Shown: one piece after another, positions 598 through 35,892 of the stretch | Position numbering within the stretch: position 1 is the first letter of the stretch | Layout: every line of letters begins with the position of its first letter | The notes under the pieces: model-generated | Told to the model about the DNA's origin: nothing | Seen by the model: only the letters and a program-made list of their open reading frames with translations | Database searches by the model: none | Assembly (NCBI GenBank): GCA_016871255.1 | Contig: VFZH01000016.1 | Coordinates: 1-42,860 of the forward strand | DNA length: 42,860 nt | From: Acidimicrobiia bacterium | Lineage (GTDB): Bacteria > Acidobacteriota > Vicinamibacteria > Vicinamibacterales > UBA2999 | Reading direction: 5' to 3' | Program-made: the position numbers and the translations under genes

Positions 598-1830
598 ATG
601 CGGGTGCTCATGCTCACGCATCGGCTTCCCTACACCGCCGATCGCGGTGACCGCATCCGGTCGCACCACCTGCTCCGCTTCCTGTCGGCTCATGCCGAGG
701 TCGATCTCGTGTCGCTCGCCCACGACGCGCAGGAGGCCGCCCACGCCGGCGCGATCTCCGGCCTGGTGTCGTCGGTGGCGGCGGTCCGCACGACACCCGT
801 CAGGGGCTGCATCCGCGCCCTCGGCGCGCTCGCGACCGGCAGCCCCCTGACGCACGCGCTGCTCGACGCGCCGGGATTCGGGGCGGCAATCCGCGCAACC
901 GTCGAGCGGCACCGGCCGGACGTCGTGCTCGCGTACTGCACCGGCATCGCGCACGCCGCGCTTGCCCCGCCCCTGGATCGGATCCCGATGGTGCTCGACA
1001 TGGTGGACGTGGACTCGGAGAAGTGGCGGACGCTCGGCGCCCGGACGGCGCCCCCGCTCGGATGGGTCTACGCGAGCGAAGCGCGGAGGCTGGCGCGGTT
1101 CGAGGCCGAGGCCGCCCTCCGCGCGCACGCCGTCACGGTGGTGCACGAGCGCGAGCGGGCGGCACTGGAACGGCTCGCGCCAGGTGCCCGTGTGCACGTC
1201 GTCGCCAACGGCATCGCCGTGGACACGTTCCGCCCGGCCACGGCGCCGTCCCCCGGCCGGCGCGTCGTCTTCTGTGGCGTGATGAACTACGCGCCGAACG
1301 TCGAAGCCGCCTGCTGGCTCGCCGAACGCGTGTGGCCCCTCGTGGTCCGCGAGCTGCCGGACGCACGGCTCTGCCTGCTGGGCGCAAGCCCTGCGCGCGC
1401 CGTGAGGTCTCTGGCAGCGCGGGACGCCACCGTCGAAGTCACCGGCCGCGTGCCGGATGTCCGGCCGTACCTCTGGGAATCAGCCGTGGCCGCCGCGCCG
1501 CTGCAGGTCGCGCGCGGCGTGCAGAACAAGGTCCTCGAAGCCGTGGCCGCAGGTCTGCCGTGCGTCGTCACGCCTGCCGTGGACGCCGGTCTTCCGGCGG
1601 AAGTACGTCCCGCGTGTCGCGTTGCCGACGAACCCCAGACCTTCGCACGCAGCCTGGTCGCGCTGCTCCGCCTTGCACCCGAAGCCCGGCGCGACCTGGC
1701 CGCGCAGGCCGATCTGGCTCACCTCAGCTGGACCGAGCGACTGGCACCACTGCTGCCACTGCTGCGCCCGGCGATCAGCCACTCGGCGAAGCGTTCGATG
1801 CCCGCCGCGAACGACGTCCGCGGCTCGTAG
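598..1830 (+). CDS. Glycosyltransferase family 4, PEP-CTERM/EpsH1-associated (stp1-like)
   Basis: A 410-residue GT-B glycosyltransferase. The N-terminus (MRVLMLTHRLPYTADRGDRIR) and the VLDMVDVDSEKW motif near residue 125 match the sugar transferase subfamily that accompanies exosortase/PEP-CTERM exopolysaccharide loci. The C-terminal Rossmann domain carries VVFCGVMNYAPNVEAACWL and the donor-site region KVLEAVAAGLPCVV. It would add a sugar from a nucleotide donor to a lipid-linked intermediate on the cytoplasmic face. Homology seems to end near LAPLLPLLRP; the last 20 or so residues read antisense to the end of the neighbouring epimerase. The two convergent frames overlap by 112 bp, suggesting a deletion that removed the original stops. 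Confidence 0.88.
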   Translation: MRVLMLTHRLPYTADRGDRIRSHHLLRFLSAHAEVDLVSLAHDAQEAAHAGAISGLVSSVAAVRTTPVRGCIRALGALATGSPLTHALLDAPGFGAAIRATVERHRPDVVLAYCTGIAHAALAPPLDRIPMVLDMVDVDSEKWRTLGARTAPPLGWVYASEARRLARFEAEAALRAHAVTVVHERERAALERLAPGARVHVVANGIAVDTFRPATAPSPGRRVVFCGVMNYAPNVEAACWLAERVWPLVVRELPDARLCLLGASPARAVRSLAARDATVEVTGRVPDVRPYLWESAVAAAPLQVARGVQNKVLEAVAAGLPCVVTPAVDAGLPAEVRPACRVADEPQTFARSLVALLRLAPEARRDLAAQADLAHLSWTERLAPLLPLLRPAISHSAKRSMPAANDVRGS

Positions 1831-2711
1831 CCGAGCAGCCGCCGCGCCTTCTCGATGGATGCCCACGTCCGCGGAACGTCCCCCGCCTGCTCAGGGAACC
1901 GTTCCACGACGGCGGATCTCCCGAAGACCCGCTCGAGCTCGGCGATCATGCCGGCGAGCGTGATGGTCCGGTCGTTGCCGAGGTTGATCACCTCGTACCT
2001 GGTACCCGCGTAGGCCAACGCGCCGCACACGCCCTGCACCACGTCGTCCACGTACGTGTAGTCCCGGCTCGTGGTGCCGTCTCCATACACCGGAATCGGC
2101 CTGCCGTCGAGCAGCAGCCGCGAGAACTTGTGAATGGCCAGGTCCGGCCGCTGGCCGGGTCCGTAGACCGTGAAGAAGCGCAGGGCGATGAAGCGAAGGC
2201 CGTGGAGGTGGCTGTAGACGTGCCCGAGGAGCTCGCCGCCGACCTTCGTGGCCGCATAGGGGCTGATCGGGCGGAGGACGTGCGCATCTTCTCGCCAGGG
2301 CACGTCCGGGTCCTCGCCGTACACGCTGCTGGACGAGGCGAACACGAACCGCTCGATGGCCCGATCGCGCGCCAGCTCGAGCAGGTTGTGCGTGCCCCGC
2401 ACGTTCACATCCGTGTAGGTCAGCGGATCCTCGATCGAGGGCCGGACACCCGCCCGCGCCGCAAGGTGCACGATCGCGTCGTAGTTGCCCGTCACGCGCT
2501 CGCGAAGTCCGGACGCGTCCCGGATGTCCACCCGGACGAGTCGATAGGCCCCGCTCGCGAGGTGGGGCGCCACGTTGCGTTCCTTGACCGACGGATCGTA
2601 GAAAGGGTCGAAGCTGTCGAGACCCGTCACCTGCCAGCCGTCCGCCAGCAGCGCCCCGGCGACATGACTGCCGATGAACCCCGCCGCGCCGGTCACGAGG
2701 GCGTGTCTCAT
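1719..2711 (-). CDS. NAD-dependent sugar epimerase/dehydratase (extended SDR)
   Basis: A 330-residue extended short-chain dehydrogenase. It has the N-terminal NAD-binding motif TGAAGFIGSH, the SSSSVYG segment, and the catalytic YAATK (YxxxK) pair. The SRDYTYVDDVV and ALRFFTVYGPGQRPD segments are typical of UDP-glucose 4-epimerase and UDP-glucuronate 4-epimerase relatives. It probably interconverts or modifies a UDP-sugar precursor; the exact substrate is undetermined, with UDP-glucuronate 4-epimerase the closest feel. The start is 12 bp below the stop of the lyase-like gene, so they share an operon. The C-terminal tail after FAEWLIAG is serine-rich, low in family character, and antisense to the neighbouring glycosyltransferase. 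Confidence 0.88.
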   Translation of the reverse strand: MRHALVTGAAGFIGSHVAGALLADGWQVTGLDSFDPFYDPSVKERNVAPHLASGAYRLVRVDIRDASGLRERVTGNYDAIVHLAARAGVRPSIEDPLTYTDVNVRGTHNLLELARDRAIERFVFASSSSVYGEDPDVPWREDAHVLRPISPYAATKVGGELLGHVYSHLHGLRFIALRFFTVYGPGQRPDLAIHKFSRLLLDGRPIPVYGDGTTSRDYTYVDDVVQGVCGALAYAGTRYEVINLGNDRTITLAGMIAELERVFGRSAVVERFPEQAGDVPRTWASIEKARRLLGYEPRTSFAAGIERFAEWLIAGRSSGSSGASRSVQLR

Positions 2712-2723: not shown

Positions 2724-5300
2724 TCACACGGCGCGCAGAAGGGCGAGAACCGCCGCCAGACCGGCCAGAGCCAGCACCGCAGCCAGCACACGCAGGCGAC
2801 GGAGGACGCGCGCCTTCTGCGGCTCGAAGGGCAGGCCGGGGCTCCCGAAGGTGCGCTGCGGTCCTCGCGGGGCCGACAGCGCTTCCGGGTGGACACGCAC
2901 GTACCCGTTCATCAACCCTCTGGACAGCAGGAGCACGAGCGGCCGCGTGCGGGTGCGCGTCGGGAACCGCTCGAGCGTCGAGCAGGCGTACTCGAAGAAG
3001 TCGCGTGAGCGCGCCATCAGGGCGTCCCGCTCGGCCTCCCCGCCGTACTTCGCCCCGAAGGCGAGCGCCTCCGCCTTCCAGAGCTCCTGCGCCGCCCAGG
3101 TCTCAGTCGGGAACTCGAGCTCCTCGGGGCGTTCCAGGTACGGGCGCTCGTGCGTGGCCATCCAGCGGGCGTAGGCGACCAGCGCCTGACGCGCGTATGC
3201 GTAGGCCTCGTCAATCTCCCCCAGCTCGGCCTTGAGGTCCAGGTACCGTCCGAGCGTGACGAGGAACACGGTGTAGGACCAGCGCGCCTCGACGTGGAGG
3301 AGGTGGCGCGCCTCGATGTCGTCACCCGGATGAATGCACCGCCGTACCAGCGTTTCCGCCTTGGCCAGCAGGGCGCGATCGCCGCCGGCTTGAAACCCGT
3401 TCAGCAGGACCGCGATCGAATATGCGCCGCCGCGGCCGGGGCCCTGGTAGTCGGGCGAGTGCGTGGCGCTCGCCAGCCCGGAGTCCCCGGGCGCAAGCCA
3501 TCCGAACGGGCGCAGGCGGCCGTCGTCCATGTCGACGACCCAGCGCGCAAGATCCAGCGCGGCGTCGCGGCTGGCCGCGGCGCCGGTCAGGAAGTGGTGC
3601 AGCAGCAGACCCGTCGAGTAGTTGTGCTCGTTGGCCGGTCCCCCTCCCGTCACGCCGGGAACGCGCGGGTACGACCGGTGCGTCGAGCGCCCGGCATCCG
3701 TGTAGTGCGCCGTGTGCCAGAACAACCCCCGGTTGAAGACGGATCGGTCTTCAGTCGTGTGGTACAGGTCGATGTCCACGACGTGCGCCGCGAGGTCCCG
3801 CATCAGCCGCCACCAGCGCTCGTCCCCGGTCCGCATGAACTGGAGCGCCAGCCCGGCCACGGCGTCGTACTGGTTGTTGTAGTGCGAAATCACCGGCACG
3901 GGCCCCGTGTAGTACGCGAGCTCGTGATCCGCGTACATGTCGCCGAAGTTCCTCCACCCGTACTCGTCGATCGCTTCCCGCTTGTGTTCGAACGACGCGT
4001 CCCCCTCGATGGCGGCGTCGACCAGGTGGACGTACGACGCGTGCGGGTCGCGGTCGCTGGGCAGCAGGTACGGAACGGCGCCGCTGCCGCAGTAGTGTTC
4101 GGGGGTGGCCCGCGCGAACAGCGGGGACCGGACCCAGTCGAGCGGCGCGTCGGCGACCTCGTCGCGGCCGGCGGCCACGTGGAAGACATGGGTCTTCTGC
4201 TCGCCCGGCTGCAACTCGTGCAGGTCGCCGTGCTGCATCGGAAAGAGCTGGACCGTGATCGTTCGCGTGGATCCCTCGATCGCCCGCGGGAAGTTCTCCC
4301 AGAAGTGCGGCACGGCGACGGCCACGTGGGCGTCAGGGGCGGAAAGAACCACCACCGGCGTCGCGCGCAGTCCTTCCGTCTCTCTCGCACCTGCGCGCAG
4401 ACGGTATCCGCGGAAGGCGAGCGGCACCCGGCCGTCGCGGTTCACGTGGTTGCGGCTCGCCCACTGCTCCCCGCCGCTGGAAGCCTGAAACAGCTCCAGA
4501 TGCTCGCCGCACGCTTCGAGCGGCTGGCCGCGCTCCACGGAGCAGTACAGCTCCCCGGTGCGTTCGCCCGGAAGGGCCACCGTGCAGGAGAGGTCACGCA
4601 GGAGGATCGCGCGCCGCTCGCCCAGCTCCCAGTATCCGCCCCGATGGCTGGCCGCCTTTCTGTTCCTGATTGTGACGGCGCACTCGACCACCGGAGACCC
4701 GGCGAAGAAGTGCAGCCTGGCCGTGACCGCCAGGCCGCCCGGCTTCGGGCCAGCGGCACGCCCGGTGACACGCACCACCGCGCGCAACGGTCCGCTGGAC
4801 TCGACGACCGCGGCCGACAGCGTGAACTCGACACGCCGGCCTCGCTGGTCCGTGAGCGTCAGGCGGAGGCGGTCGCACGGGAACGCGCCGCCGTGGCGCA
4901 GCGAGAACCGCGCCGCGCCGGTGTCGACCGTAACGTGGTGGCGGTCACGCTGCAGGCGCAGGGGCGGGGCATCGCGGAGGTCACGGTCCCCCTGCGACCG
5001 CACCAGCCGGTACTCCGCGGGCACCGGGGAGCCATCATGGTCCACCTGCAGGTCGATCAGCATCCACCGTACGGATCCATCGGGCCACTGCTGCAGCGGC
5101 GTCGTCTGTGCCCGGCCGCGGCGGCCGTCGGGCGCCACGATCTCGAAGCGGTCGGTCCGATCGAACGCGCCCCGCGGGAGCGGAAGCCCCAGGCGGACGG
5201 GCTCCGCCCGGCGCCGGCCACCGTGCCCTGGCGGGCCCGAGATCAGAACGGGAATGGACAGGGGACCGGCCATGCGGACGGCGATGGTTGGCGCCTGCAC
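2724..5300 (-). CDS. PcRGLX/YetA-like polysaccharide lyase family protein with C-terminal membrane helix
   Basis: An 858-residue protein. The N-terminal 90 residues have the RIFT-barrel signature seen in PcRGLX/YetA proteins: a PVRLGLPLPRG-like line, then QWPDGSVRWMLID. A central beta-sandwich follows (about residues 100-400), then a long alpha/alpha-toroid region containing SHYNNQYDAVAGLALQFMRTG and EHNYSTGLLLHHFLTG. Relatives include the exo-rhamnogalacturonan lyase (PL26) group and uncharacterised YetA proteins. There is no signal peptide, but the last 25 residues form one hydrophobic helix preceded by RVLRRLR. This suggests a tail-anchored membrane protein with the large domain on the positive, cytoplasmic side, which is odd for a lyase. 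The start used is GTG 5300; ATG 5273 is an alternative. It sits in an operon with the downstream epimerase. Fold family is fairly sure; lyase activity on this locus's own polymer is inference. Confidence 0.72.
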   Translation of the reverse strand: MQAPTIAVRMAGPLSIPVLISGPPGHGGRRRAEPVRLGLPLPRGAFDRTDRFEIVAPDGRRGRAQTTPLQQWPDGSVRWMLIDLQVDHDGSPVPAEYRLVRSQGDRDLRDAPPLRLQRDRHHVTVDTGAARFSLRHGGAFPCDRLRLTLTDQRGRRVEFTLSAAVVESSGPLRAVVRVTGRAAGPKPGGLAVTARLHFFAGSPVVECAVTIRNRKAASHRGGYWELGERRAILLRDLSCTVALPGERTGELYCSVERGQPLEACGEHLELFQASSGGEQWASRNHVNRDGRVPLAFRGYRLRAGARETEGLRATPVVVLSAPDAHVAVAVPHFWENFPRAIEGSTRTITVQLFPMQHGDLHELQPGEQKTHVFHVAAGRDEVADAPLDWVRSPLFARATPEHYCGSGAVPYLLPSDRDPHASYVHLVDAAIEGDASFEHKREAIDEYGWRNFGDMYADHELAYYTGPVPVISHYNNQYDAVAGLALQFMRTGDERWWRLMRDLAAHVVDIDLYHTTEDRSVFNRGLFWHTAHYTDAGRSTHRSYPRVPGVTGGGPANEHNYSTGLLLHHFLTGAAASRDAALDLARWVVDMDDGRLRPFGWLAPGDSGLASATHSPDYQGPGRGGAYSIAVLLNGFQAGGDRALLAKAETLVRRCIHPGDDIEARHLLHVEARWSYTVFLVTLGRYLDLKAELGEIDEAYAYARQALVAYARWMATHERPYLERPEELEFPTETWAAQELWKAEALAFGAKYGGEAERDALMARSRDFFEYACSTLERFPTRTRTRPLVLLLSRGLMNGYVRVHPEALSAPRGPQRTFGSPGLPFEPQKARVLRRLRVLAAVLALAGLAAVLALLRAV

Positions 5301-5360
5301 CCGTGACGCGGCGCCACCGGGATGATATCAACGCCAGTCACGGCGGTACACTGTCCCTCC

Positions 5361-12711: not shown

Positions 12712-13289
12712 ACGAACCGGGACTCCTCCGGGACCGTCTCCATGCCGTCCGGCACGGATGCCACCAGCGCCAGGACCCGCTGCACCTCCTCCTCGATCGA
12801 GGAGCCTTGCGTGTCAAGCACCAGCTCCGGGCTGTCCGGTGGTTCGTAGGGCGCATCGATCCCCGTGAAGTCGGACAGCTGGCCGGCGCGGGCCCTGGCA
12901 TACAGCCCCTTGACGTCGCGCCGCTCACACTCGGCCAGCGGTGTCGCCACGTGCACCTCGATGAAGCGCCGGCACAGGCTCCGGGCAAACGCCCGCGACC
13001 GCGCGTAGGGGGAAATCAGCGCCACGAGCACGATGACGTCGTGCCACTCGAGACGGCTGGCCAGGAAGCCGACGCGGCGCACGTGCCGGTCCCGCTCTTC
13101 CGGCGAGAAGCCGGTCTGCGGGAAGAGTTGCCGGATCGCATCGCCGTCCAGGAGCTCGACCCGCCTGCCCATGTCCTGGAGCCGCTGGTGCACACCACGT
13201 GCGATCGTCGTCTTGCCGGCGCCAGAGAGCCCCGTGAACCACACCACACAACCACCCGGTCCCGCCGTCCGGCCGCCTTCAACACTCAT
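12708..13289 (-). CDS. cysC: Adenylyl-sulfate (APS) kinase
   Basis: A 193-residue P-loop kinase that phosphorylates APS with ATP to make PAPS, the sulfate donor of sulfotransferases. Visible family marks are the Walker A motif FTGLSGAGKTT, LLDGDAIRQLF, SRLEWHDVIVLVALISPY, FIEVHVATPLAECERRDVKG, and LYARARAGQLSDFTGIDAPY. All are classic CysC segments and the length is normal. ATG 13289 overlaps the Wzt-like stop as ATGA, so it is the last gene of the GT4-Wzm-Wzt-CysC operon. No ATP sulfurylase gene is nearby. Placement beside an exporter and sulfotransferase-family genes suggests PAPS supply for glycan sulfation rather than cysteine synthesis. Confidence 0.93.
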   Translation of the reverse strand: MSVEGGRTAGPGGCVVWFTGLSGAGKTTIARGVHQRLQDMGRRVELLDGDAIRQLFPQTGFSPEERDRHVRRVGFLASRLEWHDVIVLVALISPYARSRAFARSLCRRFIEVHVATPLAECERRDVKGLYARARAGQLSDFTGIDAPYEPPDSPELVLDTQGSSIEEEVQRVLALVASVPDGMETVPEESRFV

Positions 13290-14554
13290 CTGTTCTCAAC
13301 CGCAGCTCCCGGATCCGGCCGATCCCCCATCCTGCCCAGCCGGGCTCTCGGGCGCACGTAGAGATCCGCCACGCCCAGGCGCGGGCGGTCCTCCCGCACC
13401 GTGACCGACGCGGCGTGATGCATGTGATGCAGCCGGTGCTCGGTCCGGTCGTCGATGATCGCGCACCCGAAATGGTACTGGCCGCTCACGACGTTCGCAC
13501 GCATGTGAAACTCGACGTGTACCCGAACGCGGCCGTCGCCTGCCGGGACCGCCCCGCCACTGGCGACCGGCGACGCCAAGCCCAGAGCGGCCATGGAGTA
13601 GATCGCATGGTGGACGAGCAGCGAATCCCCCGATCGCACCATGTTCATCGCGAACGCCAGGTCCTCCGCCGACGGCGGCAGCGCGTAATCCACGTGCAGA
13701 ACCAGACGATCGCCCGGGCTGATCTGCTGCACCCGGGTACCGTCGGGGTCGGTCAGCACGACGGCGACGATTTCAGCTCCGCCGGCGGTCGCCTCGTCCG
13801 GGCTCCTGCTGGCGATGTAGCTCTCGATGACATCAGCTGTGGGTCCGATGAGCCTGGTTTCGTGGTTCAGGTGCAGTGCGCGGTCGCAGAGCGTGGCCAC
13901 CGACGGCAGGTTGTGCGACACGTAGACGATCGCGACGCCGTTCCGCCTGAACTGCAGCATCCGCTGGACGCACTTCTCGCGAAACGTCATGTCGCCGACG
14001 CTGAGGACCTCGTCGATGATGAGCACTTCGGGATCCAGGTTCGCCGCGATGGAGAACCCGAGGCGCGCGTTCATGCCCGACGAGTACCGCTTGACCGGGG
14101 TATCGATGAAGTCCTCGATGCCCGCGAAGTCGACGATCTCGTCGAACCTCTTCTGCACCTCCGCCTGACGCATGCCGAGAATGGCGCCCTGCAGGAACAC
14201 GTTTTCCCGGCCGGTCAGGTCAGGGTGAAACCCGGCCGCCACCTCGATGAGGGCCCCCGCCCGGCCCTGGACCCGGCAGTGGCCGAGCGTCGGCTTGAGG
14301 ATTCTGGTCAGCAGCTTGAGCGTCGTGGACTTCCCGGCTCCGTTCGGGCCGATGATGCCGAGCGCCTCGCCCGGGCCCACCTCGAACGAGACATCGCGCA
14401 GCGCCCAGAACTCCTGGCTCTCGAGCTCGCCCTCGCGGGCCGGCCGAAACGCACGACGCACCATTGAGGGAATGAGATCCTTGAGGCTGTCGTGCAGCTC
14501 GCCTCTGCGGAACTTCTTCCAGACGCCTTCGAACGCGATCGATCCCGACGCCAC
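13286..14554 (-). CDS. wzt: Polysaccharide ABC transporter ATP-binding protein, Wzt type with C-terminal glycan-binding domain
   Basis: 422 residues from GTG 14554, where family homology begins (IAFEGVWKKFRRGE). Nucleotide-binding domain: Walker A IIGPNGAGKST, signature RYSSGMNARLGFSIA, Walker B VLIIDEVLSVGD, and switch His in YVSHNLPSV. From about residue 265 onward is a separate beta-rich domain (VLTDPDGTRVQQISPGDRLVLHVDY; YHFGCAIIDDR) matching the C-terminal Wzt carbohydrate-binding fold that recognises the finished O-polysaccharide. With the Wzm-like permease it would export undecaprenyl-linked glycan across the inner membrane. There is a 94 bp gap to the permease upstream and an ATGA overlap with cysC downstream. 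Confidence 0.93.
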   Translation of the reverse strand: MASGSIAFEGVWKKFRRGELHDSLKDLIPSMVRRAFRPAREGELESQEFWALRDVSFEVGPGEALGIIGPNGAGKSTTLKLLTRILKPTLGHCRVQGRAGALIEVAAGFHPDLTGRENVFLQGAILGMRQAEVQKRFDEIVDFAGIEDFIDTPVKRYSSGMNARLGFSIAANLDPEVLIIDEVLSVGDMTFREKCVQRMLQFRRNGVAIVYVSHNLPSVATLCDRALHLNHETRLIGPTADVIESYIASRSPDEATAGGAEIVAVVLTDPDGTRVQQISPGDRLVLHVDYALPPSAEDLAFAMNMVRSGDSLLVHHAIYSMAALGLASPVASGGAVPAGDGRVRVHVEFHMRANVVSGQYHFGCAIIDDRTEHRLHHMHHAASVTVREDRPRLGVADLYVRPRARLGRMGDRPDPGAAVENR

Positions 14555-14648
14555 TAGCGGACGTCCCCAGGTGGTGGCATCGGCACCGGCACATTCCCGG
14601 CCCAGTCGCCCGGTGCTCCCAGCCCACGCTCCATGCGACGTCCGTCCC

Positions 14649-15491
14649 TCACACGCTCTCGGCGAACCGGTCTTCGGCTCGATGAAACACCACGGTGGCC
14701 ACCGCCAGAAGGAGGAACACCAGCAGCGCCCAGATTCCGAGCGAGGCCGGAGGCCAGTCGCCAAGCAGCACGACGGCCCGGTACGATTCGACGATCGGGG
14801 TCATCGGGTTGATCTCCAGCAGCACCCGCAGCCGGCCCTCGAGCGCATCGGCCGGATAGACCACGGCAGTGGCGAACATCCAGACGTTGATCACGACGTC
14901 GAAGAGGTACTTGACGTCGCGAAAGAACAGGTTCGCCATCGACAGCAGCAGGGCCAGCGCCGTGGTGAACGCGATCTGAATGATCAGCAGCGCCGGCAGC
15001 GCCACGAGCGTCCAGGACGGCACCACTCCGTAGTAGGCGCAGAGGCCCACGAGCAGGAGCGCCCCGACGGCCAGGTCGACGAGTGAGACGAGGATGGCGG
15101 ACAGCGGGAGGAGTTCCCTGGGGAAGTACACCTTGCCGACGAGCATCGCGTTCGCGGTGAGCGCATTGACGGAGAACCTGAGGGACGCGGCGGTGAAGTT
15201 CCACACGAGCAGGCCGCAGTAGGCGAAGATCGGGTACGGGACGGGAGTCTCGATCGGCGCCACGCGCGTGAACACGACGCTGAAGATGATCGTGTTCACG
15301 AGCGGCGTGAAGATCGCCCAGGCGAAGCCGAGCACCGTCTGCTTGTATCGCAGCAGCAGGTCCCGGCGCGCCATCTGGTACAGGAGCTCGTGATACTGGC
15401 TCTGCTCGACCAGCGCCTCTCTCAGATCCTTCAGGAATGCCGGCATTCGAACGTAGACGGGGCGGGCCTCGTGGCCCCCCCAACTGTACAT
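14649..15491 (-). CDS. wzm: Polysaccharide ABC transporter permease, Wzm type
   Basis: A 280-residue ABC-2 family membrane protein. The N-terminal amphipathic stretch LLYQMARRDLLLRYKQTVLGF and the first helix AWAIFTPLVNTIIFSVVFTRV are hallmarks of TagG/Wzm/KpsM permeases. About six membrane segments follow, including LLLVGLCAYYGVV, ALLIIQIAFTTALALLLSM, and the NPMTPIVESYRAVVL loop common to the family. ATG 15491 shares one base with the stop of the upstream GT4 (TGATG), strong evidence for this start and for translational coupling; ATG 15446 is an internal alternative. It forms the channel of the exporter with the Wzt-like ATPase. Confidence 0.93.
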   Translation of the reverse strand: MYSWGGHEARPVYVRMPAFLKDLREALVEQSQYHELLYQMARRDLLLRYKQTVLGFAWAIFTPLVNTIIFSVVFTRVAPIETPVPYPIFAYCGLLVWNFTAASLRFSVNALTANAMLVGKVYFPRELLPLSAILVSLVDLAVGALLLVGLCAYYGVVPSWTLVALPALLIIQIAFTTALALLLSMANLFFRDVKYLFDVVINVWMFATAVVYPADALEGRLRVLLEINPMTPIVESYRAVVLLGDWPPASLGIWALLVFLLLAVATVVFHRAEDRFAESV

Positions 15492-16747
15492 CAAGTCGGT
15501 CCACGAACCCTCACCGGCGCCCTTCCGACGAGCTCCTCGTACACCCCGGCAAGCCGGACGTTCAGAGCCCTGATGCTGTACGAGGCTTCCACGTGCGCGC
15601 GGCCGGCGCGTCCGAACCCGGGCCACGCCTCCGGATGATCCGCCAGCCAGCCGACACGGCCGGCCAGCGCATCCACGTCACGCTCCGGCACGAGGAAGCC
15701 CGACACGCCGTCCTGGACGAGCTCCGGAATGGCACTGTGCCAGGTACTGACCACCGGCAGACCGAGCGCCATGGCTTCCATCAGGACGGTCGGCGTCCCC
15801 TCCTGGTTGCCGTCGGCCCCTGTCACGCTCGGGGCGATGAACAGGTGCGCGCGCTGCAGGATCTCCACGATCTCGTCCTGGCGCTTCGGGCCGAGCAGGG
15901 TCACGCTCCCCGCCCCACCCGCGGCCGCGATCGCCTCGGCGAGGCGGCCTCGCAGCGGTCCGTCACCGACAATGGCGTACTCCAGGTCGCCACGCGCGGC
16001 TGCCAGCCGGGCCATCGCCTGAATGCCGTACTCGATCCCCTTCTTCTCCACGAGCCGGCCCACGGTGACGACCCTGATCTTCGCGTGGGGCTCGCGGCTG
16101 CGCGGCGCGTACGGGAACCTGGCGCAGTCGATGCCGATGTGATGCACCCGGGCCCGGCGCTCGTCGCATCCGAGCGCTACGAGCTGCCGGCGCATCAACT
16201 CGCTCAACGCCAGACAGGCATCGGCCTGCTCGAACAGCGCTCCGTACACGCCGGTACCGTGCTTCGCGACCGTCAACGACACGTCGTAGCCGTAGAAGGT
16301 GGTGACGAGCCGGCCGCGGGCCAGGCCGGCCTCCCGCAGCGGCAGCACGCGGAGGCCCATGGGGCCGAAGTGGCAGTGCACGACGTCGTACGCAGGGCGG
16401 CCGATGAAGGGCGCGGCGGCGATGGCGGCATGGAGGCGCGAGCCGGCGCCCCGATGGCGCAGCAGCTGCCAGTACGCCGTCGCCGCAGCCCGGGACCGCA
16501 GTGCGCGGAGTCCGGTCGTCCCGAGAGTCCGGATCTGGAGCGCCCTTTCCCCGTCCACCGGCGGCGCATAGTACGTCCGCGAGAGGAGGTCGTACGTCCC
16601 GACGTCACGATGGACCGGCTCGGCGTCACCGGGCCCCATCGCGATGATCTCCACGTCGTGACCCAGGTCGATCAGGCCCGTGATCTGATTGAGGAGGAAC
16701 GTCTCGGACAGCGCCGGGAACCGCTCGATGACGAATGCGATACGCAT
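15491..16747 (-). CDS. Glycosyltransferase family 4, WcaL/colanic-acid type
   Basis: 418 residues from ATG 16747. The N-terminus MRIAFVIERFPALSETFLLNQ is the signature of the WcaL-like subgroup (FP-LSETF). C-terminal GT-B motifs are VHHIGIDCARF, VVTVGRLVEKKGIEYGI, YAIVGDGPLRGRL, and the donor motif QEGTPTVLMEAMALGLPVV. It is a cytoplasmic retaining glycosyltransferase that probably elongates the repeat unit exported by the Wzm/Wzt pair encoded directly downstream. The stop overlaps the permease start as TGATG. About 118 bp separates it from the decayed glycosyltransferase upstream. Confidence 0.92.
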   Translation of the reverse strand: MRIAFVIERFPALSETFLLNQITGLIDLGHDVEIIAMGPGDAEPVHRDVGTYDLLSRTYYAPPVDGERALQIRTLGTTGLRALRSRAAATAYWQLLRHRGAGSRLHAAIAAAPFIGRPAYDVVHCHFGPMGLRVLPLREAGLARGRLVTTFYGYDVSLTVAKHGTGVYGALFEQADACLALSELMRRQLVALGCDERRARVHHIGIDCARFPYAPRSREPHAKIRVVTVGRLVEKKGIEYGIQAMARLAAARGDLEYAIVGDGPLRGRLAEAIAAAGGAGSVTLLGPKRQDEIVEILQRAHLFIAPSVTGADGNQEGTPTVLMEAMALGLPVVSTWHSAIPELVQDGVSGFLVPERDVDALAGRVGWLADHPEAWPGFGRAGRAHVEASYSIRALNVRLAGVYEELVGRAPVRVRGPT

Positions 16748-16865
16748 GCAGACTGCCAGCGTACAACAACCCTGCTGACCACGCTGCTGCGGCGGCTGTA
16801 CAGGCGCTCGATGCGATCGGCGAAGCCCGGCTGCCGTTACCCGGTCCTGCCCGCCGGCCGCGCAA

Positions 16866-17647: not shown

Positions 17648-17705
17648 GACTGAGCGGCGGACCACCGATCTGCCCGGCCGTCAACTACGATCGCGTGGCC
17701 ACAGA

Positions 17706-24960: not shown

Positions 24961-26007
24961 TCAGGGAATCTCCCTGACGATTCGCGGGCCGATGGCCCGC
25001 GTGACGGCCAGGGGCAGCCGGCGCCACAGGGCAATCGCCGCACTGAACCGCGCATTCGTCGGGCTCCGATCCGGCAGCGCCACTCCCTCGTCCGCCCAGT
25101 ACTCCCAGTGCAACGGCGTCGCGACCGCCCCCCACTGCTTCTTGAACTGGTACGTGCCCTCGCCGGGAGTCGACCGGCCGAAATCGAACACCATCAGCCC
25201 GCGATCGATGGCGAACCTGAGCATGTGCCAGTAGAGCAGCACGTTCGCGCACAGGGGATTGTAGGCCCGCAGCGACGACGCCCAGGGCACCTCGATGCCC
25301 TCGCGGTGCCAGATGACGAGCGACGCGGCCACGGCCCGCCCCTCGTGCCGGATCGCGAACACCCGCGTCTCGTTCGGAAACGCGTCCAGCACGGCGGCGA
25401 AGAACCTCCGTCCGTGCACCGGCGTCCCCAGGTCCCGCATGTTCCGCGCCAGCACGTCATGAAAGCCGTCGAGCAGGTCCACCCCGCCGCTGACCGCGGT
25501 CAGCCCCGACTTTTCTGCCTTCCGCACCTGGTTGCGCAGCTTCCGGTCGAGCGCACTCCACTGCTCCTCCACGGAAGGACCGAGCGCCAGCGTCATCGCG
25601 ACCTTGTGAGACCTGACGGCCAGGCCGGGATAGTGCCGCCGCACGTGCCGCAGCTCCACGTACCGCGCCCGCCGCGCCCGGGCCTCCCCGACGGCGGCCT
25701 CCAGCAGCCGCCCCCGCGACGCCTCGTCGTCCGCCACGACGCCGCCGTAGTTCAGGAACGGCATCGACACGGCAAACCGGCCGAAGAGCGGGCTGCGGAA
25801 GAACACCAGCGGCAGCACGCCGACCACACGCGCCCCCTGGGTGGCGGCCAGGCAGCGGACCTCGTGGCCGAAGACCTCGCGCATCACCGGCGCCCACGCC
25901 GAACGATGATAGACCGACGCCTCGGACGCCCGGTCCACGTACGCGTCCCACTCGGCCGGCTCCACGTCCGTCCGGATCTCGATCGCCGGCCCGCCCGCGC
26001 GAGACAC
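24961..26007 (-). CDS. FemAB-like protein of the exosortase/PEP-CTERM-associated family
   Basis: 348 residues from GTG 26007, one base beyond the stop of the upstream gene. It has the double GNAT fold of FemAB enzymes: YHRSAWAPVMREVFGHEVRC near residue 35, PFLNYGGVVADDE, a central LDRKLRNQVRKAEKSGL helix, and the diagnostic VFDFGRSTPGEGTYQFKKQW near residue 300. FemAB proteins use aminoacyl-tRNA to add residues to peptidoglycan bridges. The PEP-CTERM-associated branch occurs beside exopolysaccharide assembly genes and its reaction is unproved. Within this operon it probably aminoacylates or acylates a glycan or lipid intermediate; that is inference. Confidence 0.88.
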   Translation of the reverse strand: MSRAGGPAIEIRTDVEPAEWDAYVDRASEASVYHRSAWAPVMREVFGHEVRCLAATQGARVVGVLPLVFFRSPLFGRFAVSMPFLNYGGVVADDEASRGRLLEAAVGEARARRARYVELRHVRRHYPGLAVRSHKVAMTLALGPSVEEQWSALDRKLRNQVRKAEKSGLTAVSGGVDLLDGFHDVLARNMRDLGTPVHGRRFFAAVLDAFPNETRVFAIRHEGRAVAASLVIWHREGIEVPWASSLRAYNPLCANVLLYWHMLRFAIDRGLMVFDFGRSTPGEGTYQFKKQWGAVATPLHWEYWADEGVALPDRSPTNARFSAAIALWRRLPLAVTRAIGPRIVREIP

Positions 26008-26008
26008 G

Positions 26009-27685
26009 TCAGTCTTCCCCCGCCCCGTCACGACGCGGCTCCGGCAGCGTGAGCACGCCGCCCAGGGTGTACCGCATGTCGATGGAGATCGGTGCCCGGC
26101 GCGACACGGGTGCGCCGGCAGCACGATAGACGACGAAGTCTTCGCCGTGCAGCGGATTGGGCACGCGCGACACGGTCACCCACTCCCCGTCGAACCGCGA
26201 CATCGTCTCCAGCAGCAGGCGATGGTGCGGCCGGGCCGCGAGGCCGGTGCCCTGCCCCACCTCGGCCACGACGAACGTCACCGGAATCCCGGCCAGGAAC
26301 TCGCGGATCTCCTCGGGCGTGTCGTACAGGAGCTCGTACTTCGACCCGTCCCACGTGCTGCGACTGAGCACTTTCCCGGCCCGCAGCACGATGTGAGCCC
26401 GGCTCCGGTCGCGTGCCGCCACCTCCGCGATGACCATCCCGCTGGTGTCGCGCTCGTCGCTCGCGCCCGACACGAGAACCACGCTGCCGGGCTCCTCGAG
26501 GATGACGTCCGCCACCCGGGCCATGCCCCGGTCCTCCCGCTGCACCGCACGCCAGGCTCCCCCCAGCACCGACCCTCCGATCACCAGGGCGACCAGCACC
26601 CCACGGACGCGGGGTGTGAGGCTGCCCGAAAGCACGCCGCTCAGCGTCCACCCTCCGAAGGCGGCGAGCCACACGAACGCCGGCGAGGCCGACACGAGAT
26701 ACCGGGGGTTCGGCGCCAGCGGCGTGAGCACGTGGAAGCCGACAACGGCCATCGCCAGAGCCGGCAGCACGGCCTGGTGCTCCGGAACCGCCCCCTCGCG
26801 CAGCCGGCGCCACACCACCACACCGATGCCCACCACCGCCAGCATCGCGCCGGCGGGCCCCAGCTGCTGCCACGCCATCCACCCGTAGGCCACGGCGCGA
26901 TCGGCAATCGAGTCACTCGTGCCGCTCCCGACGACCGTCGAGCGCAACATGCTCCACGTGACGAACTGCCAGGGGCCGGCCAGCACCACCATCAACGCGG
27001 GGCCCAGCCAGAACGTCTTCCGGGCGAGCAGCCGGGGCGCCCCCATCATCGCCACCGTGACGAACGGCAGCAGCAGGATCGCCATTCCGCTGCCCTTCGT
27101 CAGCATGCTCAGGCTCCCCAGCACACCGAACGACACACCGTCTCTCGTACGCCCCGATCGCAGGCAGGCGATCAGGCACAGGGCAGCCGCGAGATCCAGC
27201 AGGGCCACGAGCGCGTCGGCCAGGAGGTGGCTCGTGACGAACTGCGTGGACGGCATCAGGAGCACGACCGCTCCCACTCCCACGGCCGGCCAGAAGCCGA
27301 CGTCACGCCGCGCGACAACGCAGGCCAGCGTCGCCAGCGCACCCGCGATCGCCGCCAGCAGCACGAACACCGAACCGTAGGCCACCGGAAACACGAGCAA
27401 CCAGACGGCCTCGAGGACATGGAACAGCGGCGGCCAGATCCCGAAGGCGACCTTCGGATAGTGCACGTAGTAGGTCGTGGCGAACGCGAGCGGCGACTCC
27501 GCGAACCCGCTGGCGAGGTAGTCGCGAATCATCAGGCCCGTGACGAAGTGGGCCGCTTCGTCGGGCAGGTCGAGATCGGCGACGAACGCCCCGTTGGCCA
27601 CCTGGAGCAGGAGGGCCGTCACCAGGAACAGCAGCCACACCGGGGCGAGCCCGAGCAGACGGCCGGGGGCCGATCCCGTGGTCAC
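26009..27685 (-). CDS. GT-C glycosyltransferase (GT39/ArnT-like membrane protein)
   Basis: 558 residues from GTG 27685, overlapping the deacetylase stop as GTGA. It has about ten to eleven membrane helices from residue 15 (LAPVWLLFLVTALLLQVANG). The first periplasmic loop carries DLDLPDEAAHFVTGLMIRDY, with the acidic pair typical of GT39/GT83 dolichyl- or undecaprenyl-phosphate-sugar transferases. A later YYVHYPKVAFGIWPPLFHVL loop also fits the family. The C-terminal 130 residues are a soluble periplasmic domain. It would add a sugar to the polymer on the outer face of the inner membrane. Specificity unknown. Confidence 0.85.
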   Translation of the reverse strand: MTTGSAPGRLLGLAPVWLLFLVTALLLQVANGAFVADLDLPDEAAHFVTGLMIRDYLASGFAESPLAFATTYYVHYPKVAFGIWPPLFHVLEAVWLLVFPVAYGSVFVLLAAIAGALATLACVVARRDVGFWPAVGVGAVVLLMPSTQFVTSHLLADALVALLDLAAALCLIACLRSGRTRDGVSFGVLGSLSMLTKGSGMAILLLPFVTVAMMGAPRLLARKTFWLGPALMVVLAGPWQFVTWSMLRSTVVGSGTSDSIADRAVAYGWMAWQQLGPAGAMLAVVGIGVVVWRRLREGAVPEHQAVLPALAMAVVGFHVLTPLAPNPRYLVSASPAFVWLAAFGGWTLSGVLSGSLTPRVRGVLVALVIGGSVLGGAWRAVQREDRGMARVADVILEEPGSVVLVSGASDERDTSGMVIAEVAARDRSRAHIVLRAGKVLSRSTWDGSKYELLYDTPEEIREFLAGIPVTFVVAEVGQGTGLAARPHHRLLLETMSRFDGEWVTVSRVPNPLHGEDFVVYRAAGAPVSRRAPISIDMRYTLGGVLTLPEPRRDGAGED

Positions 27686-28560
27686 GAGAGCGCCGTGCCT
27701 GGCACGGCACCGTCGAGCCGGGCCGCCTCGACGACCCGTGCCACGGTCGTGAAGCGGAACTCCCGCACGAGCGCGCGGAGCCGCGCCTCGGTCTTGTCGA
27801 GGTTCCGGTAGTGCCGGACACGCGACACCAGCGACGCCGCCACGCGCGGCTGGCCGGGATCGATCTCCCACGGGTGCAGGTAGAAGATCGCCGGCCGCCG
27901 CTCCACCCGGTTCAGCCGGCCAATCCCCCACCGGGTGAAGGCGTACGGCAGCAGGCGGAAGTACCCGCCCCCGGCCACGGGCAGGTTCAGGCCCGCCCAG
28001 CGAACGGTGGAGGGCGGGGCCTCGATCAGGCGGCCGCCCGGGCGCGAGACCATGTGCGCGTGCCGCGGCGCGCCGGGGATGCCGTACCGGTCGTGGTGAA
28101 TCGGAAACACGCTGGCGTCGTAGCGGTACCCTTCCTCGATCAGCACATCGAACGCCCAGAGCGTTCGCTCCACGATCGAGTAGCTGGGCGCACGGTAGCC
28201 GGCCACCGCCACGCCTCCGGCGTCTTCGAGCAGCCGTTTCGCCCGCCGCACGTCGTCCCGGAACCGGCCCGGCGTCTGCTCGTACACCAGCTCGTGGCCG
28301 TACCCGTGCGACGCCAGCTCGTGCCCGCCGGCGACGATGCTCCGCACGAGCCCGGGGAAGCGGTCGGCCACCCAGCCCAGCACGAAGAACGTCGCCTGCA
28401 CGCCGGCGGCGTCGAACAGCCCCAGGAGCCGCTCGGTGTTCGCCACCACGCGGCTCTCGCGCCGATCCCAGCTGTCCCGCGCGACCACGCCGTTGAACGC
28501 GCTGACCTGGAAGTAGTCTTCGACGTCCACGCTCATGGCATTGACGATGGGGAGGGTCAC
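27682..28560 (-). CDS. Polysaccharide deacetylase, exosortase-system (DUF3473) type
   Basis: 292 residues. GTG 28560 overlaps the small upstream ORF as GTGA; ATG 28527 (MSVDVEDYF) is the alternative start. NodB-fold motifs: DVEDYFQVSAF (catalytic Asp motif 1), HELASHGYGHELVY (motif 2 metal His pair), YRAPSYSI (motif 3), and FYLHPWEIDPGQPR (C-terminal His motif and the DUF3473 extension). This subfamily accompanies exosortase-type exopolysaccharide loci and is expected to remove N-acetyl groups from aminosugars of the polymer. No signal peptide is visible, as is usual in the subfamily. Very good family match. Confidence 0.93.
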   Translation of the reverse strand: MTLPIVNAMSVDVEDYFQVSAFNGVVARDSWDRRESRVVANTERLLGLFDAAGVQATFFVLGWVADRFPGLVRSIVAGGHELASHGYGHELVYEQTPGRFRDDVRRAKRLLEDAGGVAVAGYRAPSYSIVERTLWAFDVLIEEGYRYDASVFPIHHDRYGIPGAPRHAHMVSRPGGRLIEAPPSTVRWAGLNLPVAGGGYFRLLPYAFTRWGIGRLNRVERRPAIFYLHPWEIDPGQPRVAASLVSRVRHYRNLDKTEARLRALVREFRFTTVARVVEAARLDGAVPGTALS

Positions 28561-28745
28561 GGCTGCCCGCGCTCCGCAGACTGGGTCCACATGTGCTTGC
28601 CGTGGGGGTGTCCGCCCAGGGCCCTCGCCTGGCGGTGCAGGCCGACGAGCGTCCCCTCGCCGGGGTGACTGGCCGGGAACAGCCGCTGGTAGCCGCGGCA
28701 CAGGCGCGCGGCCAGCGGGACCACCGGTGCGAGCAGGCCGCGCAT
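28557..28745 (-). CDS. Small ORF of 62 residues, unknown
   Basis: It fills the gap between the phosphoglycosyl transferase stop (28778) and the deacetylase start, from ATG 28745. Its stop overlaps the deacetylase GTG as GTGA, the coupling pattern used throughout this operon. The protein starts with a hydrophobic/basic segment (MRGLLAPVVPLAARLCRGYQ) that could be an amphipathic membrane-surface helix, then a basic, glycine- and histidine-rich tail (RALGGHPHGKHMWTQ). I do not recognise it. It could be a genuine small protein or chance in GC-rich DNA; gap filling and stop overlap favour a gene. Confidence 0.4.
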   Translation of the reverse strand: MRGLLAPVVPLAARLCRGYQRLFPASHPGEGTLVGLHRQARALGGHPHGKHMWTQSAERGQP

Positions 28746-28777: not shown

Positions 28778-30169
28778 CTACATGCCCCGCTGGAGCAGCA
28801 CGGTCTTCACCGTCTCGAACATGATGAAGAAGTCGAGGCTGAGCGAGAGGTTCTTGATGTAGAAGAGGTCGTACTGCAGCTTCTCCATCGCGTCCTCGAC
28901 GGTCGCGCCGTACGTGTAGCGCACCTGCGCCCACCCGGTGATGCCGGGCTTCACGACGTGCCGCTGGCCGTAGAACGGAATCTGCTTCTCCAGGTCGCCG
29001 ACGAACTCCGGGCGCTCGGGCCGCGGCCCCACGAGCGACATCTCGCCATTCAGGACGTTCCAGAGCTGGGGCGTCTCGTCGAGCCTGGTCCGGCGGAGGA
29101 AGCCGCCGATGGGCGTCAGCCGCGTGTCGTCCTACCGCGCCCAGACGGCGCCGGTTCCCTGCTCGGCATCCGCGCGCATCGATCGCAGCTTGACGACGGT
29201 GAACACCCGGCCCCCCTGGCCGACGCGCTGCTGCCGGTAGAAGACCGGACCCGGCGAGGTGACGCGGATCAGCATCGCGAGCAGGCCGATGACCGGCGCG
29301 AGCAGGAACAGGCCGATCAGCGCGGCCGCGATGTCGATGGCGCGCTTGGCGGCGTCCCGCCACGGACTGCGCTCGAAGCCGGCGTTGAAGATCAGCCAGC
29401 TCGGCCGCAGGTTCTCGATGGCGATCTTGCCCGTGTACTCCTCGTACACCGACGCCAGGTGCTCGAAGCGCACCCCCTGGGTGCGCATCTCGAGCAGACG
29501 CCACATCGGAAGCTTGCCTCTCGCGTCGGCCAGGCTCACCACCACCTTGTCGATGCCGCGCTCTCCCACGATTGCTGGGATGTCATCCACGGTGCCGACA
29601 ATGCCCGGATTGAAGACCGGCTGCCCGACCCGGTGGGCATCCGTATCCACGAACCCGACGATCTCGACGCCCAGGTCGCGGCGGAGGTGAAGTTCCCGGG
29701 CGAGGGCCACGGCCGCGGAGTTCGTGCCCACCAGCAGCAGCCGCTCGCGCGGTCCGACCTGCGACGAAAGCCATCGGAAGCCGAGGCGCCACCCGATGAC
29801 GAGCGGCACCACCAGCGCCGAGGCGATGACCGCGACCCCCCGGCCCAGCGCCATGTCCGGAGCGAAGTAGTACACCAGCGCGAGGATGATCGAGGTCGCG
29901 CCGAGCGCCTGCAGCGTGCGGACGATCAGGTCACGCCGATCGGCGGCGATCCGTGCCTGGTCGTAGAGATCGCAGTAGTGCAGGCACATCTGGCACACCA
30001 CGACGACGATCAGGGCCCTGAGCGGCATCTCGTCGCCGGTGAGGAACTCGGTCGCGCCCGCGCCGAGCCGGAGATAGGCCGCCGCGGCGATGGCCACGAG
30101 AATCAGGGCGGTCTCCAGCAGGACGAGAAGGAGCCGGCGCGAGCGACCGTGGTGCGCGGGGTGAGGCAT
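28778..30169 (-). pseudogene. Undecaprenyl-phosphate sugar phosphotransferase (PEP-CTERM EpsB type) interrupted by an amber codon
   Basis: From ATG 30169 (TGATG overlap with the kinase stop) 463 codons encode a WbaP/WcaJ-type polyprenyl phosphoglycosyl transferase. Parts in order: several N-terminal membrane helices, a CoA-binding-like domain (RLLLVGTNSAAVALARELHL), a re-entrant helix region (KRAIDIAAALIGLFLLAPVI), SPGPVFYRQQRVGQGGRVF, VVKLRSMR, then WAR. Next comes TAG at 29132-29134 (codon 346), followed in the same frame by DDTRLTPIGGFLRRTRLDET, PQLWNVLNGEMSLVGPRPER and a normal C-terminus ending at 28778. Homologues have Glu at the stop position. The catalytic Asp-Glu pair (in LDETPQL) lies beyond the stop, so the truncated product should be inactive. 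The enzyme would start repeat-unit synthesis on undecaprenyl phosphate. Confidence 0.88.
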
Positions 30170-31122
30170 CAGGAGTAGTGACTGTCCTTCTTCGCGGAGC
30201 CACCCTGCCCGTAGTAGTGGTAGTACGAGCTGTAATAGGTGTCGCCACCCGCGATGCGTCTGGGGTCCACGCGGTTCAGCACGACGCCGACGATCTTGCT
30301 GCGGCCGATCGCATCCACCGACCGCTGCACGAGCGTGGCATCCGTCTTCCCGGCGCGGATGACCACCAGCGCGCCGTCGACCATGGCGCCCAGCAGTTTC
30401 GCGTCCGTCAGAATCCCCACCGGCGGGGTGTCGATGATCACCCACTCGAAGGCCGCCGCCGCCTCGGCGAGCAGGCGCTTCATCCGTTCCGACGTCAGGG
30501 CGCTCATCGGATCGGGATCCGGCGCGCCCGCCGTCAGCAGCGACAGGTGCTGCGACACCTGGACGATCGACACCTTGCGCTCGGGGTTGCTGGTGAGCAC
30601 TTCGCGCAACCCGTACACCTTCGGCACCTGGAAGACGTCGTCGAGCGATGGCCGGCGCAGGTCGGCATCGATGAGCAGCACGCGGCGCTGATAGGACTCG
30701 CTCAGCGTCAGCGCGATGTTGGTGGCCGTCAGCGTCTTGCCTTCGTTCGGCACGGCGCTGGTCACCATCAGCGTCTTCAACCCGCTTTCCTCCTGCGCGT
30801 GGTGCAGGGAGGCCGCGAGACGGCGGTACTGCTCGCGCAGCGGCTGGGGCACGGCCGACGAGACGATCAGCTTCTCGTTGTAGGCGCGGTTGAACCCGCG
30901 GAACCGGGGCCGGACGCGATCGTCCATGGCGTCGGACACCGGCCCCATCGGGACCTCCGCCCGCTCGTCGGCCTGGCCATCCTCGACCGGCGGTCCGACG
31001 ACGACCGCGGCCCCGGGCGCCTCTGCAGCCGGCGGAGCGTCCGGCGGAACCGGCTCCGGCGGACGCCGCCGGGACACGCGTCCTGTGGTGGCGCGTTCGA
31101 GCGCCGCGCTCAGGCGACTCAT
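30169..31122 (-). CDS. BY-kinase, capsular exopolysaccharide tyrosine autokinase (PEP-CTERM TyrKin type)
   Basis: 317 residues from ATG 31122, overlapping the ATPase stop as ATGA. A proline-rich N-terminus of about 90 residues precedes the kinase domain: Walker A TSAVPNEGKTLTATNIAL, Walker A' VLLIDADLRRPSL, Walker B WVIIDTPPVGILTDAKL. The C-terminus is a tyrosine cluster (DTYYSSYYHYYGQGG), the usual autophosphorylation tail. There is no membrane helix, so like CpsD/CapB it is a separate cytoplasmic kinase that must pair with a Wzz-like activator, here encoded two genes upstream. Cycles of phosphorylation control chain length and export. Confidence 0.93.
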   Translation of the reverse strand: MSRLSAALERATTGRVSRRRPPEPVPPDAPPAAEAPGAAVVVGPPVEDGQADERAEVPMGPVSDAMDDRVRPRFRGFNRAYNEKLIVSSAVPQPLREQYRRLAASLHHAQEESGLKTLMVTSAVPNEGKTLTATNIALTLSESYQRRVLLIDADLRRPSLDDVFQVPKVYGLREVLTSNPERKVSIVQVSQHLSLLTAGAPDPDPMSALTSERMKRLLAEAAAAFEWVIIDTPPVGILTDAKLLGAMVDGALVVIRAGKTDATLVQRSVDAIGRSKIVGVVLNRVDPRRIAGGDTYYSSYYHYYGQGGSAKKDSHYS

Positions 31123-33859: not shown

Positions 33860-33865
33860 GATGAC

Positions 33866-33871
33866 CCTCCT
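33866..33871 (-). promoter_or_regulatory. Strong Shine-Dalgarno (AGGAGG) before the Wzz-like gene
   Basis: A perfect AGGAGG in the 18 bp gap before GTG 33859, spacing 6 nt. Most other genes in the operon rely on stop/start overlap instead, so this is the clearest independent translation start in the operon. Confidence 0.65.
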
Positions 33872-33877
33872 GGCTCC

Positions 33878-35224: not shown

Positions 35225-35892
35225 GGCACGACAACGGTGTCACCCGGCTTCAGCAGGATGTTCTGCCCCAGCTTCCGGCGGCGGGAGACCGACTCGTAGT
35301 CGAACGGGTAGGTCCTGGGTATCCCGTTCTCCGTGCGCATGATCGTGATGTCCTCGCGGCGGGCGAAGTCGCTCAGGCCTCCCGCCGTGGCGATCAGCTG
35401 CAGCACCGTCATCGGCGTGGTCAGCGGGTACGGTCCGGCCTTGCCGACCTCTCCCACGATGTACACGCGCCGGCTGTTGATCTGCTTGACGACGACCGTG
35501 GCCTGCGGCGACTCGAGGAACCGCTCGGCTTCTTCGGTGATCCGCTCGCGAAGCCCGGTGGGCGTCAGGCCGGCGGCCATGACTTCGTTGATGAGCGGCA
35601 GGCTGATCTTGCCGTCGGGACGCACGATCACCTCGGTCGACATGTCCTTGTCGCGCCAGAACACGATCGACAGGACGTCGTCGGCACCGATGACGTAGTC
35701 GTCGGGAGACGCGACGCCCGCTGCGATCGCCTCGGCCGACAGCCTCGTCTCCCCGGCTCGGCCCTCGCCGCCCGGCAGGTCCGCGGCATCGGGATTCTGG
35801 GCCGACACCGCGCGGCCGCCGAGCACGAACACCGAGAGCGCCAGCACGCCGGCCCGGCGCCCGAGCGACCGGCAGATCGAGCCGCGGCTCAC
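35221..35892 (-). CDS. Polysaccharide export protein, Wza/PEP-CTERM export type
   Basis: 223 residues from GTG 35892, overlapping the activator stop as GTGA. There is a signal peptide ending near AVSAQ and no lipobox cysteine, unlike E. coli Wza. The Poly_export domain has [40 protein letters not shown], and the SLBB-type domain follows ([39 protein letters not shown]). It would form the periplasmic/outer-membrane export ring, perhaps with the beta-barrel encoded next. Short length without an extra C-terminal helix is normal for the PEP-CTERM branch. Confidence 0.93.

Follow-up and report, generated by a model that had tools for sequence, protein, structure and literature searches.

A PcRGLX-like gene in a polysaccharide locus

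The stretch of DNA studied here (the window) comprises 42,860 nucleotides of contig VFZH01000016.1 from a member of the Vicinamibacteria (Acidobacteriota; assembly GCA_016871255.1). It carries a locus for polysaccharide assembly, and our subject is one gene of this locus, 2724-5300, coding for a protein that resembles the rhamnogalacturonan lyase PcRGLX and ends in a hydrophobic helix (Table 1). The open frame around the gene spans 867 amino acids. Since an in-frame TGA lies nine codons before the GTG start, an upstream signal peptide is excluded, and the 858-residue protein without signal peptide described in the initial annotation was borne out. No NCBIfam model matched the protein. In Pfam, PF19501 (PcRGLX_1st) passed the cut-off with E 7.9e-8 and PF21345 (PcRGLX_2nd) remained just under it with E 2e-4.

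Table 1. Location of the gene 2724-5300, its parts and other features of the window
Feature	Positions	Strand	Remarks
NAD-dependent sugar-nucleotide epimerase family gene	1719..2711	-	perhaps UDP-glucuronate 4-epimerase (tentative)
PcRGLX-like tail-anchored protein gene (predicted)	2724..5300	-	858 codons from GTG 5300; 849 from ATG 5273
C-terminal hydrophobic helix	2733..2789	-	residues 838-856
Loosely conserved basic segment ahead of membrane helix	2796..2828	-	residues 825-835; first residue Phe, invariant in 16 tails
Alpha/alpha toroid region	2901..4043	-	residues ~420-800, bounds approximate
Central beta-sandwich, part (PF21345, below cut-off)	4677..4832	-	residues 157-208; region also aligned profile-to-profile
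N-terminal RIFT-barrel match (PF19501)	5061..5201	-	residues 34-80
In-frame stop (TGA)	5328..5330	-	nine codons upstream of GTG 5300
Wzt (with Wzt_C domain) and Wzm-type exporter genes, ATP-binding cassette (ABC) type	13286..15626	-	
FemAB family XrtA/PEP-CTERM-associated protein	24961..26124	-	TIGR03019, above cut-off
Polysaccharide deacetylase	27682..28701	-	70% identity over 276 amino acids to DUF3473 deacetylase of locus L002
XrtA-type exopolysaccharide block	29132..36983	-	TIGR03013-like transferase (incomplete frame), tyrosine kinase, ATPase, chain-length protein, outer-membrane protein, export protein, sigma-54 regulator

The clade and its exported relatives

Whole-genome searches were performed in three overlapping sets, comprising 59 near-relative genomes (own genome included), 193 of the class and 396 from the phylum. 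Matches were obtained in 11 of the 59 (any match), in 22 of the 193 (E at most 1e-20) and in 26 of the 396 genomes. A search of genome contigs with the single protein delivered one relative, on an Acidobacteria gp6 metagenome contig (L002; L046, equal in length at 93,663, was taken as the same contig and not counted). No relative was found in viral contigs, and plasmids gave merely weak N-domain matches in four records. The high-scoring proteins of full length, 19 including that of the window, were aligned (A3) and all belong to Acidobacteriota.

A further 19 proteins of Acidobacteriota scored lower. Fifteen of these were examined together with their neighbourhood and four (L012, L068, L070, L072) for their ends only. 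In 16 of the 19 a hydrophobic segment (at least 1.45) stands just before the domain, as in exported proteins; the three misses are L012, with such a segment about 60 residues ahead, and L054 and L055, whose starts are unclear. A tail helix was seen in none of the 16 whose end was in view (the frames of L068, L070 and L072 continue beyond the stretch). Eleven of the 15 (L054, L055, L081 and L085 omitted) were aligned as A4 and used as exported rows in a tree, in which a branch supported at 100/99 separates them from all 19 high-scoring members; none of 500 shuffles was as low for this branch. The tree is unrooted, and the order within the exported rows is unsure owing to long branches there.

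Fold family and conserved residues

PcRGLX of Penicillium chrysogenum is an exo-rhamnogalacturonan lyase of family PL26 (PDB 5xq3, 5xqg, 5xqj, 5xqo) and an exported fungal pectin degrader; enzymes of its fold are known as exported degraders. To our knowledge it has neither a tail anchor nor a place in a biosynthetic locus. Sequence similarity to the window protein is distant, and a PDB search with the single sequence gave no match. With a profile of eight members 5xq3 was found with E 7e-11, and with the 19-member profile A3 with E 4e-13. This score is carried by the N-terminal stretch, the toroid stretch alone reaching only E 1.6. The Pfam scan of the eight members (E up to 0.01) showed PF19501 in all eight, PF21345 in six and PF21346 in two. 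The exported relatives provide a bridge: A3 and A4 align over 743 columns with 25% identity (E 6e-84), and A4 matches 5xq3 with E 9e-35 in an alignment reaching into the toroid. Judged by sequence profiles, the window protein is thus placed in the PcRGLX-like, PL26-type fold family, as had initially been annotated.

Within the toroid, the motif Y447-G-W-R-x-F-G-D454 is nearly invariant in the clade (D454 is replaced by E in two members), and S472-H-Y-N-N-Q-Y-D479, H506, D511, H529, H532, R542 and R623 are invariant. The residues H506, D509, D511, R623, G448, W449 and G453 are common to the clade and the exported rows (8 to 11 of 11 exported). The clade-invariant D458, E460, H529, H532 and R542 are also the commonest residues at their positions in the exported set (6 or 7 of 11 rows), and others, e.g. 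H219, E446, R450, H459, S472-H473, N476-Q477, H541 and G553-G554, are not the commonest there. In the alignments with 5xq3, counterparts were found of YG-GD (YG-x-x-x-[FY]-GD), of an Asn, and of H506 and D511. Because conserved residues shared with the exported rows stand beside invariant ones specific for the clade, we read the active site as live but altered.

That the protein has no catalytic role, being a scaffold or lectin, or that its toroid serves a glycoside hydrolase, is improbable in our view. The dense invariance of His, Asp, Glu and Arg in the toroid argues against a dead scaffold but not against hydrolysis, which would be in line with the match of the exported-relative profile to the six-hairpin glycosidase 6ex6 (E 3e-6) and with a GH127 domain match in one of the eight members (E 0.0012).

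Tail helix and predicted topology

The hydrophobic helix of the window protein comprises 19 residues with a Kyte-Doolittle mean of 2.47 and is followed by two residues to the C-terminus. The 15 residues before it have a net charge of +4, the two after it a charge of 0. A tail helix behind a basic segment was found in 16 of the 19 clade members (hydrophobicity at least 1.86). In the sister sequences L047 and L049 the basic segment is kept but the helix is degenerate (0.32 and 0.93), and L075, the earliest branch, has neither of the two; in these three the anchor was lost or never gained. As they lack a clear helix, the anchor is typical of the clade, not universal. Charged residues lie inside the degenerate helices (L047:321-2891, L049:8692-11235), which are perhaps amphipathic or represent a lost anchor.

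At the other end of the protein, a signal-like N-terminus was detected in none of the 19 members. The peak N-terminal hydrophobicity is 1.31, observed in the window protein itself, and in eight members, the window included, an in-frame stop lies at most 14 codons from the chosen start. All these signal and helix calls are hydrophobicity scores, not results of a signal-peptide or topology predictor. By hydrophobicity, the protein has no signal peptide, one C-terminal helix and a very short tail, as expected for a tail-anchored protein. Since a signal is missing, the helix sits at the very end and basic charge precedes it, the positive-inside rule would place the enzyme domain on the cytoplasmic side. 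The same topology had been proposed in the initial annotation. It is predicted for the window protein by tail helix and missing signal, and the lack of a signal-like N-terminus throughout the clade speaks for it, but the three homologues without a clear helix speak against it.

To judge how common such tails are, 244 called genes of at least 150 amino acids from 23 loci served as control, the gene caller being a crude one. In 27 of them the final 32 residues include a strongly hydrophobic 19-mer, and 12 of these had none elsewhere; all 12 are members of the PcRGLX-like clade. Two helix-bearing members are outside the 12, namely L014 with a second hydrophobic stretch (1.93) and L002, whose frame was missed by the caller. 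A profile of the 16 tails was compared with eight whole genomes and found the clade member in each (E 5e-11 or better), with no other match below E 0.002 (others E 0.0024 or worse). The tail finds only clade members and therefore is not a general sorting signal.

A PEP-CTERM sorting tail was considered as well and rejected. Such sorted proteins carry an N-terminal signal, a PEP motif before the helix and a basic cluster after it, a definition given in part by Haft et al. 2006 (PMC1569441). In the clade there is no signal peptide and no PEP motif, the basic cluster is located before the helix, and the tail profile is clade-specific.

Recurrent polysaccharide-assembly loci

The linkage of tail-anchored homologues to polysaccharide loci, which the initial annotation had put forward for a survey, was found throughout: genes for polysaccharide assembly are present in all 19 clade loci. 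Reference proteins were compared by BLAST with 36 loci; outside the window, and a few model matches aside, the assignments rest on BLAST. XrtA/PEP-CTERM-type genes were detected in 15 clade loci, and in 16 of the 19 with L018, where an XrtA amidotransferase and a PrsT model match, both below cut-off, and the exosortase is 7 kb away. The most prominent of the recurring partners is a FemAB-type relative, found in 14 of 19 loci. In L002 the clade gene overlaps the FemAB gene, which follows the deacetylase, by 4 bases, and in L048 it begins 3 bases after FemAB. L013 and L033 are short contigs, each with a Wzy-type gene, and the gene of L075 is flanked by glycosyltransferases, with a flippase and asparagine synthases nearby. 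The clade thus shares its loci with XrtA/PEP-CTERM accessory proteins (FemAB TIGR03019, deacetylase, PrsT), which are covered by models, whereas the window protein matches none in NCBIfam. Genes of FemAB, deacetylase and TIGR03013 type were found in none of the 15 lower-scoring loci checked, some of which are short contigs; the neighbours of 13 of them are only partly annotated.

With these loci at hand, an ordinary exported pectin lyase with a lost or misread signal peptide is a highly improbable explanation. It could refer to the fold family shared with PcRGLX, but is already contradicted by the stop nine codons upstream, by the lack of a signal-like N-terminus in all 19 members and by the assembly genes in all 19 loci. 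A function in chain length or release is quite improbable too; it would concern a polymer completed within the cytoplasm and then carried out by an ABC transporter (Wzm/Wzt). The window has Wzm and a Wzt with Wzt_C domain, and relatives of both occur in L074, but no more than 2 of the 19 loci gave Wzm/Wzt relatives, versus 10 with a Wzy-type gene; apart from the window, the stretches covered are 20 kb long at most.

Large proteins of one BLAST cluster recur beside clade genes (L048:750-6144, L051:11319-16189, L016:2536-5712). Two of them, with matches of choice-of-anchor Q or OmpL47 type, may be exported products of these loci.

Co-occurrence with exosortase

Haft et al. 2006 described the exosortase system and linked it with exopolysaccharide genes; the word lyase is absent from the main text of that paper (PMC1569441). 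Strong exosortase matches (PF09721, E of 1e-40 or lower) were counted by hand in 42 of the 193 class genomes; 53 have any match. Carriers of the clade gene number 17, i.e. 16 of the 19 members and G119, where the gene is cut in two pieces by a contig end and which is therefore outside the 19. A strong match is present in 14 of the 17 carriers versus 28 of the 176 other genomes (Fisher p 3.2e-8, shared ancestry ignored). The three carriers without it (G119, G125, G136) are 81-90% complete. Exosortase and clade gene were found on one contig in six genomes, about 7-40 kb apart; in the single-contig 7.5-Mb genome G037 the distance is about 20 kb. In the window's own genome, the exosortase lies on a different contig. 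Recurrent co-location and exosortase co-occurrence mark the clade gene as a component of XrtA/PEP-CTERM exopolysaccharide clusters.

Two fragments, in G108 and G096, were counted as non-carriers, both in genomes with exosortase matches. That of G108 scores better with the tail-anchored profile and adjoins FemAB and carbamoyltransferase genes, that of G096 scores better with the exported profile. A gene remnant of about 94 profile positions is found in G033 (L019:9757-10113), a genome without exosortase match, and could reflect joint decay.

The distribution also bears on an editing or recycling lyase, which would break down lipid-linked glycans that are stalled or faulty, on the inner side of the membrane, and free the undecaprenyl carrier without shaping the product. 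The lyase-type fold seen by profile, the tail helix with the basic segment N-terminal of it and the recurrent place in assembly loci would all suit such an enzyme. However, the gene is patchily distributed, occurring in 17 of 193 class genomes and in 14 of the 42 with a strong exosortase match, so that a product-specific step suits better than general quality control, and we regard the editing lyase as rather unlikely.

Other genes of the window

The initial annotation had placed the protein with a sugar epimerase inside a biosynthetic locus. Both are real in the window, but the epimerase is nearly peculiar to it (2 of 36 loci). Among its best PDB matches are 5u4q, 6zl6 and MoeE5, the latter two of which we take to be UDP-glucuronate 4-epimerases; among the 25 NCBIfam models shown, of 31, none passed its cut-off. 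In the XrtA-type block, the TIGR03013-, 03018-, 03015-, 03007- and 03027-like proteins are all below the curated cut-offs, and the general tyrosine-kinase model TIGR01007 is above its cut-off. Glycosyltransferases are also present.

The TIGR03013-like transferase (28778-30445, reverse strand) matches profile positions 5-323 of 443 in one frame (29132-30445), and an open reading frame in another frame (28778-29041) clusters with TIGR03013-like relatives; either a mutation or a faulty assembly seems to have split the gene. A frame of 519 residues (6603-8162, reverse strand) has no Pfam match (E 0.01) and no NCBIfam match (E 0.001), and one of 567 residues within the polysaccharide locus (18824-20527, forward strand) matches neither database. 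At 20568-21434 (reverse strand) there is a weak sulfotransferase match of 26.2 bits, the cut-off being 27.

Proposed function

We propose that the clade consists of cytoplasm-facing, tail-anchored carbohydrate-active enzymes which serve XrtA/PEP-CTERM exopolysaccharide clusters and most likely act on a uronate-containing lipid-linked glycan before export, and we give this proposal about an even chance. As far as sequence can tell, its cytoplasm-facing, biosynthetic part appears well supported, while the chemistry is a guess. A PL26-type fold (RIFT barrel, beta-sandwich, alpha/alpha toroid), which elsewhere in this phylum is mostly exported, would have been recruited, and the tether would keep its catalytic domain on the cytoplasmic surface of the inner membrane. 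With a cytoplasmic location in such loci the substrate would be a lipid-linked glycan, predicted to contain uronic acid and to be met before export. Lyase chemistry begins with the removal of the uronate C5 proton, and epimerases share this first step. In the clade enzyme, abstraction of this proton could be followed by elimination, which would trim or edit the glycan, or by re-protonation, which would epimerise it. FemAB-type enzymes are cytoplasmic and have lipid-linked substrates in cell-wall synthesis, which fits the proposed substrate.

Two known systems make a biosynthetic use credible by analogy. Human DS-epimerase 1 (dermatan sulfate) is described as a membrane-bound biosynthetic epimerase with a lyase-type toroid and beta-sandwich (PMC8006597). 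Its lyase relatives are PL8, PL12 and PL21, its toroid comes first and it resides in the Golgi lumen; the resemblance is in kind only. Agl32 of Halobacterium salinarum is described as a C5-epimerase acting on glucuronic acid (GlcA) of a lipid-linked glycan before membrane crossing (PMC13308652); with its predicted single helical domain and its role in archaeal N-glycosylation, it offers a functional parallel only. A reading that goes further, and that we consider doubtful, is that the clade represents a bacterial class of membrane-tethered, cytoplasm-facing PL26-fold enzymes for uronates, which they would epimerise or cleave while the exopolysaccharide precursor is still lipid-linked and not yet exported. 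The class would then be a prokaryotic counterpart of the lyase-related epimerases of dermatan sulfate synthesis.

Several observations weigh against our proposal. A clear tail helix is missing in three of the 19 members. An AlphaFold model, built from two sequences only (window and L002), is poor, with a predicted local distance difference test score (pLDDT) of 42. Of the genomes with a strong exosortase match, 28 lack the clade gene, and the association statistic ignores shared ancestry. The loci lend no support to a uronate in the product, because relatives of the enzymes expected for it are rare: a single locus of the 36 gave a UDP-glucose-dehydrogenase-type relative (45% over 153 residues, at a stretch edge), with two of the own genome's three such enzymes as queries, and besides the window only one other locus has an epimerase relative, with 28% identity. 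The own genome codes for three sugar-nucleotide dehydrogenases above the family cut-off. Finally, two exported relatives (L083, L085) lie among polysaccharide-assembly genes, and therefore the role may not depend on a cytoplasmic location.

The former of these (L083:8929-11841) is a PcRGLX-like protein with a signal-like N-terminus, located in a Wzx/Wzy locus with a glycosyltransferase on one side and a weak ATP-grasp match on the other. Exported forms of this fold may thus have a part in polysaccharide assembly as well. In L085, a family 2 glycosyltransferase frame (15749-17989) has a carbamoyl-phosphate-synthase ATP-binding match at its far end and is perhaps a fusion.

Our literature search gave no record for PcRGLX and none that ties YetA-like or tail-anchored proteins to exopolysaccharide; CAZy was not included. 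The clade apparently is an unrecorded accessory family of exosortase-linked exopolysaccharide clusters, new in its topology and context and belonging to a known fold family. As a clade without export signals and mostly with a tail anchor, located in exosortase-linked clusters, it can be used as a marker family for those clusters. It also lets one test whether a fold known from degrading enzymes has been put to use at the cytoplasmic face of the membrane. If its members are true epimerases, they would form a parallel to the animal making of iduronate-containing glycans.

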